A stretch of 64,000 nt of DNA, from NCBI RefSeq assembly GCF_020297485.1, contig NZ_JAIWZC010000001.1:4464001-4528000 (forward strand), written 5' to 3'. The notes beneath the pieces were generated by a model. It searched no databases. It was not told where the DNA came from and worked only from the letters and a program-made list of their open reading frames with translations. Positions 24,059 through 41,642 of this stretch are shown in pieces; position 1 is the stretch's first letter, and every line of letters starts with the position of its first letter. A program made the position numbers and the translations under genes. Source of the stretch: Enterocloster clostridioformis (GTDB lineage Bacteria; Bacillota; Clostridia; Lachnospirales; Lachnospiraceae).

Positions 24059-24649
24059 ATGGACGCAATTAACAGCCGCAGGAGTATACGCAGGTTCTCA
24101 GACAGGGAAATACCGCATGATATTATCTGTAAAATTATAGAAAGCGGGATAAAGGCTCCCTCGTCCAAGAACAGACAGCCGTGGAAATTTATGGTCATCC
24201 AGGGACAGGCAAAGGAAGAAATGTTGAGGGCGTTTCGGGCCGGCATCCAGAGGGAAAAGTCAGGCAGAGCCATGCTGCCGGAAAGCAGCAGGCACCTGAG
24301 AGGCGCGGAGTACACGGTCCAAATCATGGAACAGGCGCCGGTGGTCATATTTGTCCTGAATCCCCTGGGAAAAGGGCTGTTTGCTCCCCTGAATGACGAG
24401 GACAGGATTTATGAGCTCTGTAATATCCAGTCTGTCAGCGCGGCAATTGAGAATATGCTTTTGGAAGCAACGGATTTGGGAATCGGAAGTCTGTGGATCT
24501 GCGATATATTCTTTGCCTATGAGGAGCTGTGCGGATGGATGGACTGCGGGGGTGAGCTGGTGGCAGCCGTGGCCTTCGGCTATCCGGAGGAGTCGCCGTC
24601 ACCCAGGCCCCGAAAAGGGTTTGAGGACGTGGTGGTCTGGAGACGATGA
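24059..24649 (+). CDS. Nitroreductase family FMN oxidoreductase
   Basis: This 196-residue flavoprotein is of the NfsB/BluB-like superfamily. INSRRSIRRFSDREIP with its Arg-Arg pair binds the FMN phosphate, KAPSSKNRQPWKF is the second flavin motif, and GIGSLWICDIFFAYEEL is the late conserved region. AAGGAGA precedes the ATG. It reduces nitro compounds or quinones with NAD(P)H; the physiological substrate is unknown. The FMN riboswitch and riboflavin transporter lie just downstream, but as a separate transcription unit. Confidence 0.82.
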   Translation: MDAINSRRSIRRFSDREIPHDIICKIIESGIKAPSSKNRQPWKFMVIQGQAKEEMLRAFRAGIQREKSGRAMLPESSRHLRGAEYTVQIMEQAPVVIFVLNPLGKGLFAPLNDEDRIYELCNIQSVSAAIENMLLEATDLGIGSLWICDIFFAYEELCGWMDCGGELVAAVAFGYPEESPSPRPRKGFEDVVVWRR

Positions 24650-24720
24650 GACGAAAGGATGGAGCCAGAATACCGGGACTGAGACGCCGGGACTGAAGTG
24701 CAGAAAATATATGCAGACTA

Positions 24721-24749
24721 TTGCCAACCGTCCTCATATGTGCTATGAT
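24721..24749 (+). promoter_or_regulatory. Promoter of the FMN riboswitch-ribU unit
   Basis: TTGCCA (24721-24726) and TATGAT (24744-24749) are 17 nt apart, about 20 nt upstream of the riboswitch aptamer. Confidence 0.6.
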
Positions 24750-24767
24750 TCAGCTATAATTAAATAA

Positions 24768-24886
24768 AGTTCTTCGGGGCAGGGTGTGATTCCCTACCGG
24801 CGGTAATAGTCCGCGACCCGCTACGGCGGCTGATCTGGTGTGATTCCAGAACCGACAGTATAGTCTGGATGAGAGAAGAAGGTGTG
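24768..24886 (+). promoter_or_regulatory. FMN riboswitch (RFN element)
   Basis: This RNA senses flavin mononucleotide and controls riboflavin genes. The conserved RFN blocks appear in order: TTCGGGGCAGGGTG, ATTCCCTACCGGCGGT, AGTCCGCGAC, TCTGGTGTGATTCCAGAACCGACAGT and GTCTGGATGAGAGAAG. All main helices can be drawn. A terminator follows directly, so FMN binding should cause premature termination. The regulated gene is ribU, now separated from the switch by three introns. Confidence 0.93.
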
Positions 24887-24904
24887 TAAGTGGTAGATGA
24901 ACAG

Positions 24905-24937
24905 GCCCCGGATTATTTGCGTATCCGGGGCTTTTAT
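24905..24937 (+). terminator. Riboswitch expression-platform terminator
   Basis: GCCCCGGAT and ATCCGGGGC pair around a 9-nt loop and are followed by TTTTAT. It lies 19 nt after the aptamer and two bases before the first intron, the terminator-stem target favoured by bacterial group IIC introns. Confidence 0.9.
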
Positions 24938-24939
24938 AG

Positions 24940-26824
24940 GTGCGCCCGGCGGGCGCACGTTCTAACGGGTGAAAGTCCCTGACCCGCCCGGCAGTGGGAA
25001 GGGTGCAGCCAATGGCAAGGGCGTCATCGTGAGGTGGGGTCTGAAGGAAGCCGGAGGCAAACCACTGGCCTGTAAAAGTTGTCCGGATAGGCTGTGAAGC
25101 GTGGATGAGGTTGCCTAACAAACTAAAGTCCAATAACTGCACGGAACGCCAGCAGTAAACGGGGCAGGTATAAGTGGGAAAGAACGTGTGAGTACCCGGG
25201 GAGGTCTCACGGACGTGAAAGTGGCGATAAAACATTCGCTGTCACGGAGTAAAGCTTGCCGTGAGAAGTCAGCAGAGGTCATAGTACCGGGCGGTCGCAA
25301 ACGCACCGGGAAGGACTGAACAGTAGGAGGTGTCGTTACCAAATGGAAACCGGACATGGAATTAAGTACAGACAACTTCATATTGAGGACTACCTGCGAG
25401 AGATACCTGCGGAACAGGGAAGGGAAACAGGAGAGTACGCCCATGAAAGGATTACCGGGAACCCCGACACCAACACGGACTTTCGGACGGACAACCTGCT
25501 AGATACGATTCTTAGAAGCGACAATCTAAATGCCGCCTATAAGAAGGTCAAAACGAACAAAGGCGTTGGTGGGATTGACGGAATGCAGGTGGATGAACTT
25601 CTACCCTACCTGAGAGAACACCAGTCCGAATTGGTCGAGCAGGTGAGGGAAGGCAAATACAAGCCAAACCCAGTCCGAAGGGTAGAAATACCCAAAGAGG
25701 AGAAAGGAAAAACAAGGAAACTGGGGATACCCACAGTGGTAGACAGGGTAATCCAACAGGCAATCGCACAGGAACTGACGCCCTTATATGAAGAACAGTT
25801 CTCTGACAACAGCATCGGATTCCGTCCCGGCAGAGGGGCGCATGACGCACTGGAAAGATGTAGGAAATATATCAACGAAGGATATGTCTACGTGGTCAGC
25901 ATGGATTTACAATCCTACTTTGACACGGTGAACCACAGCAAGCTGATAGAGGTGCTGTCGAGGACGGTGAAGGACGGGAGGGTAATCTCGCTGATACACA
26001 AGTACCTGAAAGCCGGAGTAATGGAGGACGGAGGATTTCACGCAACGACCGAGGGCGTGCCGCAGGGAGGCCCGCTAAGTCCCTTATGTGGAAATGTCAT
26101 GCTGAATGAGTTGGACAAGGAACTGGAGCGCAGGGGACACAAGTATGTGAGGTATGCGGATGACTGCCTGATTCTGTGCAAAAGCAGGAAAAGCGCAGAG
26201 AGGACAATGGAAAACATTGTGCCATTCATCACAGGAAAAGTGTTTCTGAAAGTCAATCTTCAGAAAACGACAGTGAGCCACGTCAGCAAGATAAAATACC
26301 TGGGCTACGGCTTTTACCGGCATAAAGGGAAATGCCGCATGAGGATACACCCGAAGTCGGTGGCAAAAATGAAGAACCGGATACGGGAGCTGACAACCAG
26401 AGGGAACAAATGGAGCAATCAGGAGAGGGAAGAAAAACGCCGAAGCTATGCAAGGGGATGGATTAACTATTATCGATATGCAGACATGAAAAGCCTGATG
26501 GAACAGACGGATGAGTGGCTGCGCCACAGAATCCGAGCGGTGTACTGGAAACAATGGAAGAAGGTACGCACAAGATATAAAATGTTGCGGGCGTTACATT
26601 TACCAGAGTGGAAGGTGCATGAGATGGCGAACTGCCGAAAGGGAGTGTGGAGAGCGGCGGGAATGCTCAACTCGGCACTCACCAAAAGAATCATAGTGGA
26701 CAGACTTGGTTATCCCGATATGACTGCCCACTATCTGAAAGTCCGAGTAAACTATTGAACCGCGTAGTACCGAACGGTACGCTACGTGGTGTGGAAGGGG
26801 AGGTTAAAATCTCCCCTATCCGAT
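24940..26824 (+). mobile_element. Group II intron, copy 1 of tandem array
   Basis: This 1,885-bp retroelement begins with GTGCGCCCGG and ends with ATCCGAT, fitting the GUGYG...AY intron boundaries. About 400 nt of ribozyme domains precede the reverse transcriptase gene. After it come a domain V-like hairpin (GAACCGCGTAG...CTACGTGG, with a CGC-type triad) and a domain VI-like stem (GGGGAG/CTCCCC). Lack of an endonuclease domain and location behind a terminator point to class IIC. It is followed without any gap by copy 2. Confidence 0.9.
25343..26758 (+). CDS. ltrA: Group II intron reverse transcriptase/maturase, copy 1
   Basis: The intron-encoded protein helps its RNA splice and reverse-transcribes it into new sites. 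It has 471 residues. The reverse transcriptase fingers and palm include GIDGMQVDELL, FRPGRGAHDAL, VSMDLQSYFDTV, GVPQGGPLSPL and the catalytic RYADDCLIL near residue 271. The maturase (X/GIIM) domain follows around YARGWINYYRYADMKSL. No H-N-H endonuclease domain is present, as expected for class IIC. AGGAGGTG precedes the ATG. Its protein is identical to copy 2. Confidence 0.93.
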   Translation: METGHGIKYRQLHIEDYLREIPAEQGRETGEYAHERITGNPDTNTDFRTDNLLDTILRSDNLNAAYKKVKTNKGVGGIDGMQVDELLPYLREHQSELVEQVREGKYKPNPVRRVEIPKEEKGKTRKLGIPTVVDRVIQQAIAQELTPLYEEQFSDNSIGFRPGRGAHDALERCRKYINEGYVYVVSMDLQSYFDTVNHSKLIEVLSRTVKDGRVISLIHKYLKAGVMEDGGFHATTEGVPQGGPLSPLCGNVMLNELDKELERRGHKYVRYADDCLILCKSRKSAERTMENIVPFITGKVFLKVNLQKTTVSHVSKIKYLGYGFYRHKGKCRMRIHPKSVAKMKNRIRELTTRGNKWSNQEREEKRRSYARGWINYYRYADMKSLMEQTDEWLRHRIRAVYWKQWKKVRTRYKMLRALHLPEWKVHEMANCRKGVWRAAGMLNSALTKRIIVDRLGYPDMTAHYLKVRVNY

Positions 26825-28709
26825 GTGCGCCCGGCGGGCGCACGTTCTAACGGGTGAAAGTCCCTGACCCGCCCGGCAGTGGGAAGGGTGCAGCCAATGG
26901 CAAGGGCGTCATCGTGAGGTGGGGTCTGAAGGAAGCCGGAGGCAAACCACTGGCCTGTAAAAGTTGTCCGGATAGGCTGTGAAGCGTGGATGAGGTTGCC
27001 TAACAAACTAAAGTCCAATAACTGCACGGAACGCCAGCAGTAAACGGGGCAGGTATAAGTGGGAAAGAACGTGTGAGTACCCGGGGAGGTCTCACGGACG
27101 TGAAAGTGGCGATAAAACATTCGCTGTCACGGAGTAAAGCTTGCCGTGAGAAGTCAGCAGAGGTCATAGTACCGGGCGGTCGCAAACGCACCGGGAAGGA
27201 CTGAACAGTAGGAGGTGTCGTTACCAAATGGAAACCGGACATGGAATTAAGTACAGACAACTTCATATTGAGGACTACCTGCGAGAGATACCTGCGGAAC
27301 AGGGAAGGGAAACAGGAGAGTACGCCCATGAAAGGATTACCGGGAACCCCGACACCAACACGGACTTTCGGACGGACAACCTGCTAGATACGATTCTTAG
27401 AAGCGACAATCTAAATGCCGCCTATAAGAAGGTCAAAACGAACAAAGGCGTTGGTGGGATTGACGGAATGCAGGTGGATGAACTTCTACCCTACCTGAGA
27501 GAACACCAGTCCGAATTGGTCGAGCAGGTGAGGGAAGGCAAATACAAGCCAAACCCAGTCCGAAGGGTAGAAATACCCAAAGAGGAGAAAGGAAAAACAA
27601 GGAAACTGGGGATACCCACAGTGGTAGACAGGGTAATCCAACAGGCAATCGCACAGGAACTGACGCCCTTATATGAAGAACAGTTCTCTGACAACAGCAT
27701 CGGATTCCGTCCCGGCAGAGGGGCGCATGACGCACTGGAAAGATGTAGGAAATATATCAACGAAGGATATGTCTACGTGGTCAGCATGGATTTACAATCC
27801 TACTTTGACACGGTGAACCACAGCAAGCTGATAGAGGTGCTGTCGAGGACGGTGAAGGACGGGAGGGTAATCTCGCTGATACACAAGTACCTGAAAGCCG
27901 GAGTAATGGAGGACGGAGGATTTCACGCAACGACCGAGGGCGTGCCGCAGGGAGGCCCGCTAAGTCCCTTATGTGGAAATGTCATGCTGAATGAGTTGGA
28001 CAAGGAACTGGAGCGCAGGGGACACAAGTATGTGAGGTATGCGGATGACTGCCTGATTCTGTGCAAAAGCAGGAAAAGCGCAGAGAGGACAATGGAAAAC
28101 ATTGTGCCATTCATCACAGGAAAAGTGTTTCTGAAAGTCAATCTTCAGAAAACGACAGTGAGCCACGTCAGCAAGATAAAATACCTGGGCTACGGCTTTT
28201 ACCGGCATAAAGGGAAATGCCGCATGAGGATACACCCGAAGTCGGTGGCAAAAATGAAGAACCGGATACGGGAGCTGACAACCAGAGGGAACAAATGGAG
28301 CAATCAGGAGAGGGAAGAAAAACGCCGAAGCTATGCAAGGGGATGGATTAACTATTATCGATATGCAGACATGAAAAGCCTGATGGAACAGACGGATGAG
28401 TGGCTGCGCCACAGAATCCGAGCGGTGTACTGGAAACAATGGAAGAAGGTACGCACAAGATATAAAATGTTGCGGGCGTTACATTTACCAGAGTGGAAGG
28501 TGCATGAGATGGCGAACTGCCGAAAGGGAGTGTGGAGAGCGGCGGGAATGCTCAACTCGGCACTCACCAAAAGAATCATAGTGGACAGACTTGGTTATCC
28601 CGATATGACTGCCCACTATCTGAAAGTCCGAGTAAACTATTGAACCGCGTAGTACCGAACGGTACGCTACGTGGTGTGGAAGGGGAGGTTAAAATCTCCC
28701 CTATCCGAT
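26825..28709 (+). mobile_element. Group II intron, copy 2 of tandem array
   Basis: This second 1,885-bp unit starts immediately after the last base of copy 1 with the same GTGCGCCCGG and ends with ATCCGAT. No exon sequence separates the copies. The coding part appears identical to copy 1, so the duplication is recent. Confidence 0.9.
27228..28643 (+). CDS. ltrA: Group II intron reverse transcriptase/maturase, copy 2
   Basis: This 471-residue protein is identical to the copy 1 enzyme, with the same YADD catalytic site and maturase domain. It is intact and could act on all three intron RNAs. Confidence 0.93.
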   Translation: METGHGIKYRQLHIEDYLREIPAEQGRETGEYAHERITGNPDTNTDFRTDNLLDTILRSDNLNAAYKKVKTNKGVGGIDGMQVDELLPYLREHQSELVEQVREGKYKPNPVRRVEIPKEEKGKTRKLGIPTVVDRVIQQAIAQELTPLYEEQFSDNSIGFRPGRGAHDALERCRKYINEGYVYVVSMDLQSYFDTVNHSKLIEVLSRTVKDGRVISLIHKYLKAGVMEDGGFHATTEGVPQGGPLSPLCGNVMLNELDKELERRGHKYVRYADDCLILCKSRKSAERTMENIVPFITGKVFLKVNLQKTTVSHVSKIKYLGYGFYRHKGKCRMRIHPKSVAKMKNRIRELTTRGNKWSNQEREEKRRSYARGWINYYRYADMKSLMEQTDEWLRHRIRAVYWKQWKKVRTRYKMLRALHLPEWKVHEMANCRKGVWRAAGMLNSALTKRIIVDRLGYPDMTAHYLKVRVNY

Positions 28710-30594
28710 GTGCGCCCGGCGGGCGCACGTTCTAACGGGTGAAAGTCCCTGACCCGCCCGGCAGTGGGAAGGGTGCAGCCAATGGCAAGGGCGTCATCGT
28801 GAGGTGGGGTCTGAAGGAAGCCGGAGGCAAACCACTGGCCTGTAAAAGTTGTCCGGATAGGCTGTGAAGCGTGGATGAGGTTGCCTAACAAACTAAAGTC
28901 CAATAACTGCACGGAACGCCAGCAGTAAACGGGGCAGGTATAAGTGGGAAAGAACGTGTGAGTACCCGGGGAGGTCTCACGGACGTGAAAGTGGCGATAA
29001 AACATTCGCTGTCACGGAGTAAAGCTTGCCGTGAGAAGTCAGCAGAGGTCATAGTACCGGGCGGTCGCAAACGCACCGGGAAGGACTGAACAGTAGGAGG
29101 TGTCGTTACCAAATGGAAACCGGACATGGAATTAAGTACAGACAACTTCATATTGAGGACTACCTGCGAGAGATACCTGCGGAACAGGGAAGGGAAACAG
29201 GAGAGTACGCCCATGAAAGGATTACCGGGAACCCCGACACCAACACGGACTTTCGGACGGACAACCTGCTAGATACGATTCTTAGAAGCGACAATCTAAA
29301 TGCCGCCTATAAGAAGGTCAAAACGAACAAAGGCGTTGGTGGGATTGACGGAATGCAGGTGGATGAACTTCTACCCTGCCTGAGAGAACACCAGTCCGAA
29401 TTGGTCGAGCAGGTGAGGGAAGGCAAATACAAGCCAAACCCAGTCCGAAGGGTAGAAATACCCAAAGAGGAGAAAGGAAAAACAAGGAAACTGGGGATAC
29501 CCACAGTGGTAGACAGGGTAATCCAACAGGCTATCGCACAGGAACTGACGCCCTTATATGAAGAACAGTTCTCTGACAACAGCATCGGATTCCGTCCCGG
29601 CAGAGGGGCGCATGACGCACTGGAAAGATGTAGGAAATATATCAACGAAGGATATGTCTACGTGGTCAGCATGGATTTACAATCCTACTTTGACACGGTG
29701 AACCACAGCAAGCTGATAGAGGTGCTGTCGAGGACGGTGAAGGACGGGAGGGTAATCTCGCTGATACACAAGTACCTGAAAGCCGGAGTAATGGAGGACG
29801 GAGGATTTCACGCAACGACCGAGGGCGTGCCGCAGGGAGGCCCGCTAAGTCCCTTATGTGGAAATGTCATGCTGAATGAGTTGGACAAGGAACTGGAGCG
29901 CAGGGGACACAAGTATGTGAGGTATGCGGATGACTGCCTGATTCTGTGCAAAAGCAGGAAAAGCGCAGAGAGGACGATGGAAAACATTGTGCCATTCATC
30001 ACAGGAAAAGTGTTTCTGAAAGTCAATCTTCAGAAAACGACAGTGAGCCACGTCAGCAAGATAAAATACCTGGGCTACGGCTTTTACCGGCATAAAGGGA
30101 AATGCCGCATGAGGATACACCCGAAGTCGGTGGCAAAAATGAAGAACCGGATACGGGAGCTGACAACCAGAGGGAACAAATGGAGCAATCAGGAGAGGGA
30201 AGAAAAACGCCGAAGCTATGCAAGGGGATGGATTAACTATTATCGATATGCAGACATGAAAAGCCTGATGGAACAGACGGATGAGTGGCTGCGCCACAGA
30301 ATCCGAGCGGTGTACTGGAAACAATGGAAGAAGGTACGCACAAGATATAAAATGTTGCGGGCGTTACATTTACCAGAGTGGAAGGTGCATGAGATGGCGA
30401 ACTGCCGAAAGGGAGTGTGGAGAGCGGCGGGAATGCTCAACTCGGCACTCACCAAAAGAATCATAGTGGACAGACTTGGTTATCCCGATATGACTGCCCA
30501 CTATCTGAAAGTCCGAGTAAACTATTGAACCGCGTAGTACCGAACGGTACGCTACGTGGTGTGGAAGGGGAGGTTAAAATCTCCCCTATCCGAT
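28710..30594 (+). mobile_element. Group II intron, copy 3 of tandem array
   Basis: This third 1,885-bp unit abuts copy 2. It carries three visible base differences from copies 1 and 2 (at 29378, 29532 and 29976), so it is the most diverged and perhaps the founding copy. The host sequence after it begins GTGCGCATTCCG, sharing its first six bases with the intron's own 5' end. Confidence 0.9.
29113..30528 (+). CDS. ltrA: Group II intron reverse transcriptase/maturase, copy 3
   Basis: This 471-residue protein is nearly identical to the other two. One of the three base changes replaces Tyr by Cys in ELLPYLREH (now ELLPCLREH, about residue 89); the other two are silent. Catalytic motifs are unchanged, so it is probably active. 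Confidence 0.92.
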   Translation: METGHGIKYRQLHIEDYLREIPAEQGRETGEYAHERITGNPDTNTDFRTDNLLDTILRSDNLNAAYKKVKTNKGVGGIDGMQVDELLPCLREHQSELVEQVREGKYKPNPVRRVEIPKEEKGKTRKLGIPTVVDRVIQQAIAQELTPLYEEQFSDNSIGFRPGRGAHDALERCRKYINEGYVYVVSMDLQSYFDTVNHSKLIEVLSRTVKDGRVISLIHKYLKAGVMEDGGFHATTEGVPQGGPLSPLCGNVMLNELDKELERRGHKYVRYADDCLILCKSRKSAERTMENIVPFITGKVFLKVNLQKTTVSHVSKIKYLGYGFYRHKGKCRMRIHPKSVAKMKNRIRELTTRGNKWSNQEREEKRRSYARGWINYYRYADMKSLMEQTDEWLRHRIRAVYWKQWKKVRTRYKMLRALHLPEWKVHEMANCRKGVWRAAGMLNSALTKRIIVDRLGYPDMTAHYLKVRVNY

Positions 30595-30647
30595 GTGCGC
30601 ATTCCGAAGGACACATAATAAGTACTCATAACGAGGAGGACAGGAAA

Positions 30648-31274
30648 ATGAAACAGAATCATTTACTCAGTGTTAGGAATGTAACCGTCATGGCCATGTT
30701 TGGCGCCCTGGCGGCAGTGCTCATGATTTTTGAGGTGCCCCTTCCCTTTATCGCGCCGTCATTTTACGGCATGGATATCAGCGAGGTTCCGGTACTTGTG
30801 GGTACCTTTGCCCTGGGGCCTGTGGCAGGCGTTGTCATGGAGCTGGTGAAAATCCTGGTGAAGCTGATACTGAAGCCTACCAGCACGGGATTTGTGGGAG
30901 AGTTTGCCAATTTCTGCGTTGGATGTTCCCTGGTGCTGCCCGCAGGCTTTATATACAGGCTTAACAAAACAAAAAAGGGAGCTGTCATAGGAATGGCGGC
31001 AGGAACCGTGATCATGACAATCGTGGCTGTGATACTCAATGCGGTTGTTATGCTTCCGTTCTATTCCCATTTCATGCCTCTGGACACCATCATTGCGGCA
31101 GGCGCGGCCATTAACCCGGCCATCAGCAATGTGTGGACTTTTGTAATCCTGGCCGTAGGCCCCTTCAACATATTGAAGGGCGTCATTGTAAGCCTGCTCA
31201 CCGCCCTGGTCTATAAGAGGGTCAGCGTTATTATCCATTCGGATTCAGAAAGGCGGGCCGTTAAAACTTCTTAA
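30648..31274 (+). CDS. ribU: Riboflavin ECF transporter S component
   Basis: This membrane protein binds riboflavin or FMN for the energy-coupling-factor transporter. It has 208 residues and about six helices. VTVMAMFGALAAVLMIFEVPLPF and GMDISEVPVLVGTFALGP match the RibU N-terminal region that docks the ECF T component. ACGAGGAGGAC precedes the ATG at 30648. A longer in-frame reading starts inside intron copy 3 and is not real. The FMN riboswitch 5.7 kb upstream confirms the function. Three intron copies lie in its leader, so full-length expression needs splicing or long read-through. Confidence 0.92.
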   Translation: MKQNHLLSVRNVTVMAMFGALAAVLMIFEVPLPFIAPSFYGMDISEVPVLVGTFALGPVAGVVMELVKILVKLILKPTSTGFVGEFANFCVGCSLVLPAGFIYRLNKTKKGAVIGMAAGTVIMTIVAVILNAVVMLPFYSHFMPLDTIIAAGAAINPAISNVWTFVILAVGPFNILKGVIVSLLTALVYKRVSVIIHSDSERRAVKTS

Positions 31275-39667: not shown

Positions 39668-41568
39668 GTGCGCCCAGCTAAGGGCTTGAAATTTAGTGGG
39701 TGAGAGTCCCACGGTGTAAGGTACAAGCTATACCGCATCAAGCGAGTCTTGGGTGGACAGCAGCGATGTTGCCTGCTAAGCGTAGACAGCGGGATTGCAG
39801 GGCATAGCCGTATATAGCTTCGATATTAAAATGAAATTGGGAAGGCAGAAGTGCTCCTATACACTGAAAGCAACACAGCTGTAGTCGTTAAGAGCGAGAA
39901 TGCAGCTGCTTCCCCGGGGTTTTAAGGCTGGTCATGTAATCAAGGATTTTAAGTCAACTGGGGAGGTCTGCCAGGCTCCGGGCAGGTTGCGTAAGCCCGG
40001 TATACGGAACAACGGTAGAAAGGAGAACCGTAAATGGCCGGCAGAAGTCGGATGGCCGAATAGTACACAGCAAAAAAAAGCGGTGGAAGTCGAGAGAGAC
40101 CTGTCCTCGCAGGTCAGCCATGCAAAGTCATATCAAAGAGGAAACATAATCTGTACGCAGAGACAGGAGAAATTATGGAAACGAAATTGGCGAGAATATC
40201 ACAGTTGTCAAGCGAACATCCGGAAATGGTATTTACGTCCATAGGGCATCTGATTAATAAAGAGTTACTGAAAGAATGCCACAAGGAGATGGATGGAAAG
40301 AAAGCGGTAGGAATTGATGGAATTACCAAAGAGGACTACGAAGTAAATTTGGAAGAAAACTTAGATGAATTAATCAGGAAAATGAAGAAGAAGGCATACA
40401 AGCCCAAACCGGCAAAACGGGTGGAAATACCAAAAGAAAATGGAAAGACCCGCCCGCTCAGTATATCCTGCTATGAGGATAAGTTAGTACAGGAAGCGCT
40501 AAGGCGAATACTGGAAGCAGTGTTCGAGCCCCATTTCTACGAAGAAATGATGGGATTCCGCCCAGGAAGGAACTGCCACATGGCATTAAGGAGACTGAAT
40601 GGGATGCTGGAAAGGGAAAAGACGAATTGGGTGCTGGACGCAGACATTAAAGGGTTTTTCGACCATTTAGACCATGAATGGATAGTAAAGTTCATAGAAT
40701 CGCGGATAAAAGACCCGACCATTATCAGACTGGTAAGACGGATGCTGAAAGCGGGAATCATGAGAGATTTCAGATATGAGGAGACAGAAGAAGGGGCAGG
40801 CCAAGGCTCGGACTGCTCCCCGGTCATAGCCAATATATATATGCACTATGTGCTGATATGGTGGTTCAGGGAGAAAGTACAGCCAGTGATGAGAGGATAT
40901 GCGGGGCTGGTAGTCTATGCGGATGATTTTGTGGGATGCTTCCAATATAAATCAGATGCAGAAATATTTTATGAACACTTAAAGCGCAGAATGAAGTACT
41001 TTGGACTAGAATTGGAGGAAAGCAAGACAAGGTTGATTGAATTTGGCCGATTCGCAGAAAGTAACCGGAAAGACCGGGGAAAAGGGAGGCCGGAGACGTT
41101 CACATTCCTGGGATTCACGCATTACTGTTCGCATGGCAGGACGGGAAAGTTCAGAGTAAAGAGGAAAACCAGTAAGAAAAAGCTTGCAAAGAAAAGCAGG
41201 GAAATAAACGCCATGATAAGAGACATGAGGTTTCTGGAGATAAACAGGATAGTAAAGAAACTAAATGAAGTACTGACTGGTTATTATCATTATTACGGAA
41301 TTACTGACAATTCAAGAAGCCTGAACTCATTCAATAATGTGGTATGGTTTAGGTTATTCTACTGGCTGAACAGAAGAAGTCAGAGAAGGAGCTATACGAA
41401 GGAAGGATATAAGGAACTAATGAGACAGTTCCCGCTTGTGCGGCCACGTATTTATGTCAGTATATACGGATAACTGTAGATGTATTAGCTTTGCAGGGAG
41501 CCGGATGCGGGAAAGCTGCATGTCCGGTTCTGAGAGGGGTAAGCCCTGTAAGGGGCTTACCTACTTAC
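39668..41568 (+). mobile_element. Second type of group II intron
   Basis: This element of about 1.9 kb begins GTGCGCCCAGC and ends near CTACTTAC. A classical domain V (GAGCCGGATGCGG...GTCCGGTTC, AGC triad) and a domain VI stem (GGTAAGCCC/GGGGCTTACC) follow the protein gene. About 500 nt of ribozyme domains precede that gene, so 39638-40174 holds no other gene. It is unrelated in sequence to the triple array beyond the GTGCGCCC start. It sits 14 nt behind an intrinsic terminator. Confidence 0.88.
40175..41473 (+). CDS. ltrA: Group II intron reverse transcriptase/maturase (second type)
   Basis: This 432-residue intron-encoded protein has the reverse transcriptase motifs GIDGITKEDYE, FRPGRNCHMAL, LDADIKGFFDHLDHEW and catalytic VVYADDFVG near residue 247. 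In place of the common PQGG motif it has EGAGQGSDCSPVIANIY, marking a different intron lineage from the triple array. A maturase region follows (LTGYYHYYGITDNSRSL). No endonuclease domain is present. ACAGGAGAAATT precedes the ATG. It appears intact. Confidence 0.9.
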   Translation: METKLARISQLSSEHPEMVFTSIGHLINKELLKECHKEMDGKKAVGIDGITKEDYEVNLEENLDELIRKMKKKAYKPKPAKRVEIPKENGKTRPLSISCYEDKLVQEALRRILEAVFEPHFYEEMMGFRPGRNCHMALRRLNGMLEREKTNWVLDADIKGFFDHLDHEWIVKFIESRIKDPTIIRLVRRMLKAGIMRDFRYEETEEGAGQGSDCSPVIANIYMHYVLIWWFREKVQPVMRGYAGLVVYADDFVGCFQYKSDAEIFYEHLKRRMKYFGLELEESKTRLIEFGRFAESNRKDRGKGRPETFTFLGFTHYCSHGRTGKFRVKRKTSKKKLAKKSREINAMIRDMRFLEINRIVKKLNEVLTGYYHYYGITDNSRSLNSFNNVVWFRLFYWLNRRSQRRSYTKEGYKELMRQFPLVRPRIYVSIYG

Positions 41569-41642
41569 CAAAGTCCTTGCTGAAATAAAGTTATGTAAAC
41601 TAATGATTCTGCCAAAGGAGGGTATAGAAAACAGACGGTGAT

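Follow-up and report, generated by a model that had tools for sequence, protein, structure and literature searches.

The FMN riboswitch terminator upstream of ribU carries a recent, repeatedly targeted stack of group IIC-type introns. The window analysed here is a stretch of 64,000 nucleotides (C1:4464001-4528000) from a 5.87 Mb genome assembled in two contigs (G000), and the copy number of three is the number drawn in that two-contig assembly. Reading 5' to 3', the locus consists of an FMN aptamer, a hairpin, the sequence CTTTTATAG, three intron units, a short leader that includes a ribosome-binding site, and ribU. A preliminary description of this DNA had proposed the order of FMN aptamer, terminator, three abutting 1,885-bp introns and intact ribU, and both the Rfam matches and the repeat coordinates bear it out. 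The features are listed below in window coordinates.

24721..24749, + strand: promoter-like site of the riboswitch transcript, TTGCCA-17-TATGAT (consensus scan, 10/12)
24766..24884, + strand: FMN riboswitch aptamer (RF00050, 116.2 bits; gathering score 66.2)
24905..24939, + strand: terminator hairpin and tail CTTTTATAG, the 5' exon of the array (fold; same hairpin sequence at the empty site of two species)
24940..26824, + strand: group II intron copy 1, a 1885-bp unit (RF02001/RF01998)
25115..25118, + strand: EBS1 of copy 1, CTAA (covaries with the exon end across 40 introns; z 10.2, runner-up 2.3)
25343..26758, + strand: IEP of copy 1, 471 aa, RVT_1 and GIIM
26825..28709, + strand: group II intron copy 2, identical to copy 1 (RF02001/RF01998)
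27228..28643, + strand: IEP of copy 2
28710..30594, + strand: group II intron copy 3, which differs at intron positions 669, 823 and 1267 (RF02001/RF01998)
29113..30528, + strand: IEP of copy 3, Y89C
30595..30600, + strand: GTGCGC, start of the 3' exon and the same as the first six intron bases; possible stub of a lost copy
30648..31274, + strand: ribU, ECF transporter S component (PF12822), closely preceded by a ribosome-binding site of its own, GAGGAGG

The terminator hairpin has arms at 24905-24913 and 24923-24931 around a loop of 9 bases, and its tail CTTTTATAG ends at 24939. The final four bases of this 5' exon, ATAG, constitute IBS1 and pair with EBS1 at 3/4 positions. A simple terminator scan did not flag the FMN-site hairpin because its 9-base loop exceeds the tool's loop limit of 8. 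The intron units follow one another at a spacing of exactly 1885 with zero exon bases between copies, and the head-to-tail stacking claimed earlier therefore stands. On the + strand of 24600-30700, a crude consensus scan found the promoter-like site at 24721-24749 only and none within the array; the 4 promoter-like sites in this region are no excess over the shuffled-sequence mean of 4.5. The PF12822 match, the solved RibU chains and the FMN aptamer upstream qualify the ribU product as a predicted RibU, the riboflavin ECF S component. It matches three solved chains, all of them RibU or riboflavin uptake proteins, and in NCBIfam it matches the folate S component alone, below threshold at 24.7 of 60 bits.

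Work by Robart et al. in 2007 and by Toor et al. in 2006 reportedly placed group IIC (bacterial class C) introns after intrinsic terminators. Each of the three copies has two group II D1-D4 matches above cut-off (RF02001, RF01998), while the Rfam D5 model RF00029 falls below cut-off in the copies of family A, as we call the 1885-bp unit. Each also encodes an intact IEP of 471 aa with reverse transcriptase and maturase domains (RVT_1, GIIM, also group_II_RT_mat). The domain search of the IEP returned no endonuclease domain, and its best solved match is the GsI-IIC RT. A hairpin lies directly 5' of the insertion at 16/16 family A sites of this genome that have a 5' end (in the array, ahead of copy 1) and at one further site in G006, and the IBS1-EBS1 pairing is short, with 4-base covariation. 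The RNA core, the IEP domains, the hairpin target and the short EBS1-IBS1 thus uphold the proposed IIC type, and the 16 sites behind hairpins uphold terminator targeting. No intron lies inside another, as it would in a twintron; the array is made of three complete uninterrupted units end to end.

Family A has 15 places holding at least 18 full copies (40 of 96 candidates scored); one more place (L019/L020) is interrupted, L018 has a truncated second copy, and C1:8392-9210 is a fragment. The hairpins in front of it have energies of -19 to -30 kcal/mol across 17 exons, one of them from G006. Family B (1902 bp) occupies 9 places among the 40 of 98 candidates scored, a count that omits two places at the start of contig C1 that are apparent assembly redundancy. 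Family C (1847 bp) has 21 full and 4 interrupted copies among the 40 of 105 candidates scored. Because two places are common to two families, the three families together have 48 distinct landing sites. Insertion of IIC introns behind intrinsic terminators is established (PMC8919778, PMC4424553, PMC7161350).

The EBS1 was located by covariation in an alignment of 40 introns, comprising families A, B and C and 37/45 related loci with a pattern-found 5' end. The other 8/45 loci were omitted for doubtful boundaries or as repeats of another, three starts were shifted by 2-4 bases, and the 40 introns are not all independent, several coming from one genome. Intron bases 176-179 (CTAA; window 25115-25118) form a mean of 3.32 of 4 pairs with the last four exon bases, compared to 1.95 of 4 when exons are shuffled among introns; this stretch reaches z 10.2 and the next z 2.3. 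Family A sites have 3 or 4 of 4 pairs at 17/17 (16 own, one in G006; G-U counted). A candidate EBS1 at intron 131-139, with 9/9 pairs to the FMN exon, was rejected: it was slightly outscored by other stretches of the same scan, relatives do not conserve the region and the covariation favoured another stretch. Ahead of copies 2 and 3, the hairpin is the stable end of the preceding intron and the IBS1 match is absent, the intron's own final four bases forming 1 of 4 pairs with EBS1. Cryo-EM of a IIC RNP on DNA defines the target as a stem-loop, a short IBS1 and a single IBS3 base (PMC10190682).

The idea of a switch-linked terminator as a landing pad extends beyond ribU, with three more cases in G000 and two in G086 (T-box counted). 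An Rfam scan of the 48 G000 landing sites places a riboswitch directly upstream at four, with gaps of 32 to about 91 bases. Altogether 6/103 intron sites scanned are switch-linked (48 in G000, 40 in five other genomes and 15 of 80 named loci), a minority, and a count taken among intron sites. The six are as follows.

FMN riboswitch, G000: family A, three copies, before ribU
Glycine riboswitch, G000: family A, before gcvT-gcvH-gcvPA, with the genome's only gcvT (gcvH and gcvPA named by eye)
Glycine riboswitch, G000: family C, before an ORF fusing glyA-like and gcvPA-like parts
TPP riboswitch, G000: family C, before thiD
T-box, G086 (a different genus): intron before tyrS; the match ends about 20 bases before the intron
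Fluoride riboswitch, G086: before a cation/proton-antiporter-like gene (below NCBIfam cut-offs); ends about 20 bases before the intron

The 40 sites in five other genomes divide into 18 in G086, 14 in G014 and 8 in G183, G157 and G240, and the Rfam scan returned no upstream riboswitch or T-box at the 14 sites of G014 or at those 8. The 15 named loci have no switch directly upstream; a cobalamin riboswitch about 1.9 kb upstream of L086 was not counted. A glycine riboswitch also lies 1.3 kb upstream of L161 and was likewise not counted. These sites suggest that RNA switches are recurrent landing sites for IIC introns. The tyrS of G086 is the only one above cut-off, a second match reaching 44.4 of 113.8 bits. 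For this essential gene to be expressed behind a T-box and an intron, there must be sufficient read-through or splicing, or else an unseen promoter, and since it is the sole recognised copy, such insertions must be tolerable.

At the FMN site, folding with the terminator 3' arm omitted predicts that the 5' arm pairs with the aptamer 5' side at 24773-24780 (probability about 0.7), with 24863-24868 and 24881-24883 as alternative predicted partners (0.24-0.31). Such predicted alternative pairing would fit the expected antiterminator logic. Transcription of ribU from the riboswitch promoter must cross 5.7 kb. The preliminary description had made ribU dependent on splicing or on ~5.7 kb of read-through. 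This part of it is weakened: read-through is required, but translation does not call for splicing, the ribosome-binding site of ribU lying downstream of the array. The notion that ribU is essential for want of riboflavin synthesis was rejected, ribH, the sole pathway gene checked, being present.

How much the switch matters to the introns admits two answers. The stronger contender, which has a considerable though less than even chance of being right, is that these are ordinary IIC litter behind a terminator, with the switch incidental and ribU weakened or silent. IIC introns are generally found behind terminators and, according to PMC8919778, are seldom transcribed, just 6/103 of the scanned sites are switch-linked, and the presence of ribH means that ribU need not be essential. 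Against mere litter, the host genes retain intact frames, the only above-cut-off tyrS of G086 lies behind a T-box and an intron, so that downstream expression must be possible there, and the only gcvT of G000 lies behind a glycine switch and an intron.

Fairly unlikely, in our estimate, is the alternative that conditional terminators provide a regulated home for IIC introns, in which ligand limits transcription and promotes splicing and mobility tracks the ligand state. One hairpin would then serve in three roles, as transcription terminator, as DNA landing pad and as the 5'-exon element that defines the splice site. Under the ligand control that we infer for the FMN off-switch, the ligand-free state would permit intron transcription yet sequester the hairpin arm for 5' splice-site choice. 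The ligand would consequently act in two opposite senses, giving less transcription and more splicing of RNA already made. If this is true, the cell's vitamin, amino-acid, fluoride or tRNA state would govern how mobile the introns are, and stacks would supply more intron RNA per transcript.

Stacking itself is unevenly distributed. Same-family stacks are confined to family A, at three sites: the FMN site with three copies, and C2:455931-459700 and C1:3708742 with two each, where the second copy of C1:3708742 stops near position 795. All three mix copies with different markers. Among full copies, the 823T variant is restricted to the 3' copy of the FMN array and that of the C2 array, and the copy 3 markers 669G and 1267G recur at other G000 sites. 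Because copy 3 bears the markers of another lineage, at least two insertions probably occurred at the FMN site. The term self-amplifying array, used in the preliminary description, is thus apt only in part: the markers reveal different lineages at one site rather than local copying alone.

Families also pile up on one another. Mixed stacks consist of A then B with two bases between, where the B copy behind A is without about 260 bases, and of C then B with four bases between; family A is also followed by stubs, C-like and 58 bases long at L012, B-like and 36 bases long at L015. Pile-ups account for 6/16 family A places, and the damaged partner, if any, is always the 3' one. Families B and C have no same-family stack in G000, though they are as numerous as A (C more so), so 5'-side targeting alone does not predict stacking. 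Nor are six bases shared between the 3' exon and the intron start needed for stacking, an idea that we rejected because GAAAGC begins the 3' exon behind the C2 array; the TGCACGC at the ribU site of relatives also contradicts it.

Beyond this genome, none of 80 related loci has a second copy of the same kind (L102 and L155 have a different IEP nearby), and 41 RF02001 matches in 6 genomes include no stack, with most, not all, candidates scored. A first junction pattern occurred in 3/397 genomes: in G000 at the C-to-B stack, in G157, where the match is merely an eight-base intron-like stub, and in G132. The G132 case, an ORF-less IIC remnant behind an intron end, is the sole further pile-up among the 397 genomes. 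A second junction pattern occurred in 1/397, namely at six junctions of G000. The sample of 397 includes only G000 and G005 from the same genus, and many of the genomes searched for stacks are drafts, in which arrays would break contigs.

The ribU site of relatives is found both empty and occupied. The ribU leader of G012 and G015 reads CTTTTATAG-TGCACGCATTCC, an empty site. In G002 the contig begins inside an intron ending CCGAT and continues into TGCACGCATTCC, so that the same site is occupied, and the 327 intron bases have zero mismatches to window copies 1 and 3. The ribU region of G000 is 86% identical to that of G002 and 95% identical to that of G012, which is empty (ungapped columns of a roughly 2-kb alignment). 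Apparently, the terminator was entered independently in G000 and in G002; a single old insertion, followed by losses and gene conversion, would be a less simple history. The 3' exon is GTGCGCATTCC in G000 versus TGCACGCATTCC in the relatives (TGCACGC there). Intron-start-like stubs occur in four cases, GTGCGC at the FMN site, the 58-base and 36-base stubs and the eight-base stub of G157, suggesting that deletion can reduce an older 3' copy to a stub of its 5' end. The FMN array may accordingly once have had one more copy, a guess from these four cases.

Five things seen directly in the sequence, namely the anatomy, the mixed lineages, the empty and refilled sites, the EBS1-IBS1 covariation and the recurrence at other switches, make it likely that a group IIC-type intron reverse-spliced repeatedly into the DNA of the FMN riboswitch terminator and so gave rise to the array. 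On the other side, copies 1 and 2 are identical, as local duplication would also give, families B and C do not stack on themselves, a stable hairpin does stand ahead of copies 2 and 3, and the FMN exon pairs with EBS1 at 3, not 4, of 4 positions. The order of insertion that we infer starts from an intron that would recognise the hairpin and three to four IBS1 bases 5' of the insertion point and hardly anything 3' of it. Insertion would preserve the target at the 5' exon/intron junction; with the target still intact, the next copy could enter and older copies would be pushed downstream.

Splicing would proceed along one of two routes. The array would be transcribed from the riboswitch promoter while the terminator is unformed, and ribU would be made by read-through and translated from its own ribosome-binding site. 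In IIC introns a stem-loop is used for locating the 5' splice site (PMC7161350). Since copy 1 alone has the hairpin and a matching IBS1, copies would leave serially from the 5' end or as one block: copies 2 and 3 would become spliceable after loss of the preceding copy, or all three would exit together. Either route would produce the same exon junction.

An unlikely history has one insertion copied locally through unequal recombination or replication slippage, with copy 3 changed later by mutation or gene conversion. The identity of copies 1 and 2 and the exact spacing would suit it, and tandem copies could easily change number by recombination. What it leaves unexplained is that 669G and 1267G recur at other G000 sites, that 823T is present in the 3' copy of the C2 array and that stacks of different families share the same layout; moreover, a first tandem pair needs flanking homology, and a lone insertion provides none. 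Recombination could nevertheless account for the change from two copies to three. It is very unlikely that one or two copies were drawn as three by the assembler: 18 near-identical genomic copies are difficult for assemblers and a near-duplicate sequence does occur at the start of contig C1, but the copies are distinguished by markers, the assembly has only two contigs and G002 independently shows an intron joined to the ribU leader. Scarcely credible is a domesticated unit like C.te.I1, in which one intron faces four D5/6 motifs (PMC3919590) and a single 5' splice site can be joined to any of several 3' sites, for although one matched 5' splice site does face three 3' sites here, each of the three copies is complete and encodes an intact IEP, the copies have barely diverged, no coding exon separates them and there is no sign of selection for the arrangement.

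Insertion behind switch-linked terminators bears on how these introns are viewed. IIC introns are described as nearly harmless, owing to their positions behind terminators and their rare transcription (PMC8919778). A signal-opened terminator would break the assumption of rare transcription, as it would place intron, IEP and host gene on one signal-controlled transcript. The six switch-linked loci are natural experiments on ligand control of splicing and mobility, and the stacks are a record of successive insertions at one site. Among literature titles and abstract beginnings, in a search that most subscription papers lay outside, none concerned head-to-tail IIC arrays or IIC introns at riboswitch terminators; this silence is weak evidence of novelty.

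Compared with terminator-inserted IIC introns, the FMN-site introns have the same IEP type, hairpin target, short IBS1 and insertion a few bases behind the stem. They differ in that the terminator here belongs to a riboswitch, a host gene lies behind the intron and the copies stand head to tail. Repeated homing into occupied sites is known from twintrons and nested arrays, in Thermosynechococcus (PMC2882425) and in Methanosarcina acetivorans (via PMC4424553). The FMN array shares with them repeated insertion at an intron-occupied place and a lasting homing site; theirs are nested, whereas the G000 copies lie end to end and none is interrupted. As in C.te.I1 of Clostridium tetani, one 5' splice site has several possible downstream 3' ends. 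In that system (PMC3919590), repeated D5/6 motifs and coding exons lead to protein isoforms; the G000 array consists of whole introns with no exon between them, and isoforms are not expected. Finally, the FMN riboswitch-ribU leaders of the two empty-site relatives have aptamer, terminator hairpin and ribU in the same order, and what sets the G000 locus apart is the 5.7 kb of introns between switch and gene.

The window carries a second type of group II intron in addition to the 1885-bp group IIC-type family A:

Window about 39668-41580, plus strand: group II intron of a type other than family A, with matches to RF02005 and RF00029
Window 40175-41473, plus strand: 432-aa intron-encoded protein (IEP), an ORF within this intron

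As for family A, a terminator-like hairpin is found a short distance upstream of this intron. The preceding gene, judged by eye, looks like one for an NlpC/P60 protein.

Two further features were identified at other loci:

G000:C1:1626596-1627104, minus strand: element of about 509 bp with family A-like intron ends (L182)
L174:1128-1808, minus strand: fused ORF preceded by a glycine riboswitch and an intron of family C

The first of these consists of 386 bases from the 5' part and 115 bases from the 3' part of a family A-like intron, with the IEP nearly absent; it is an ORF-less derivative of such an intron. The second joins the start of serine hydroxymethyltransferase to a middle part of GcvPA and is perhaps a deletion scar.

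Family B introns were observed about 40 bases downstream of a 6S RNA match (L165, G000:C1:190955) and about 290 bases downstream of RNase P RNA (L164, G000:C1:233734).

The first kilobases of contig C1 (L168, G000:C1:1-12500) resemble a lower-quality near-duplicate of C1:26000-40000, having the same introns with small insertions and deletions around them, and probably represent assembly redundancy.

In another genome, G157, GTGCGCCT, which is the start of that genome's introns, lies immediately 3' of an intron end and is followed by non-intron sequence (L245, G157:C8, about 637). This stub resembles GTGCGC at window 30595, intron-start bases directly following an intron 3' end in both.
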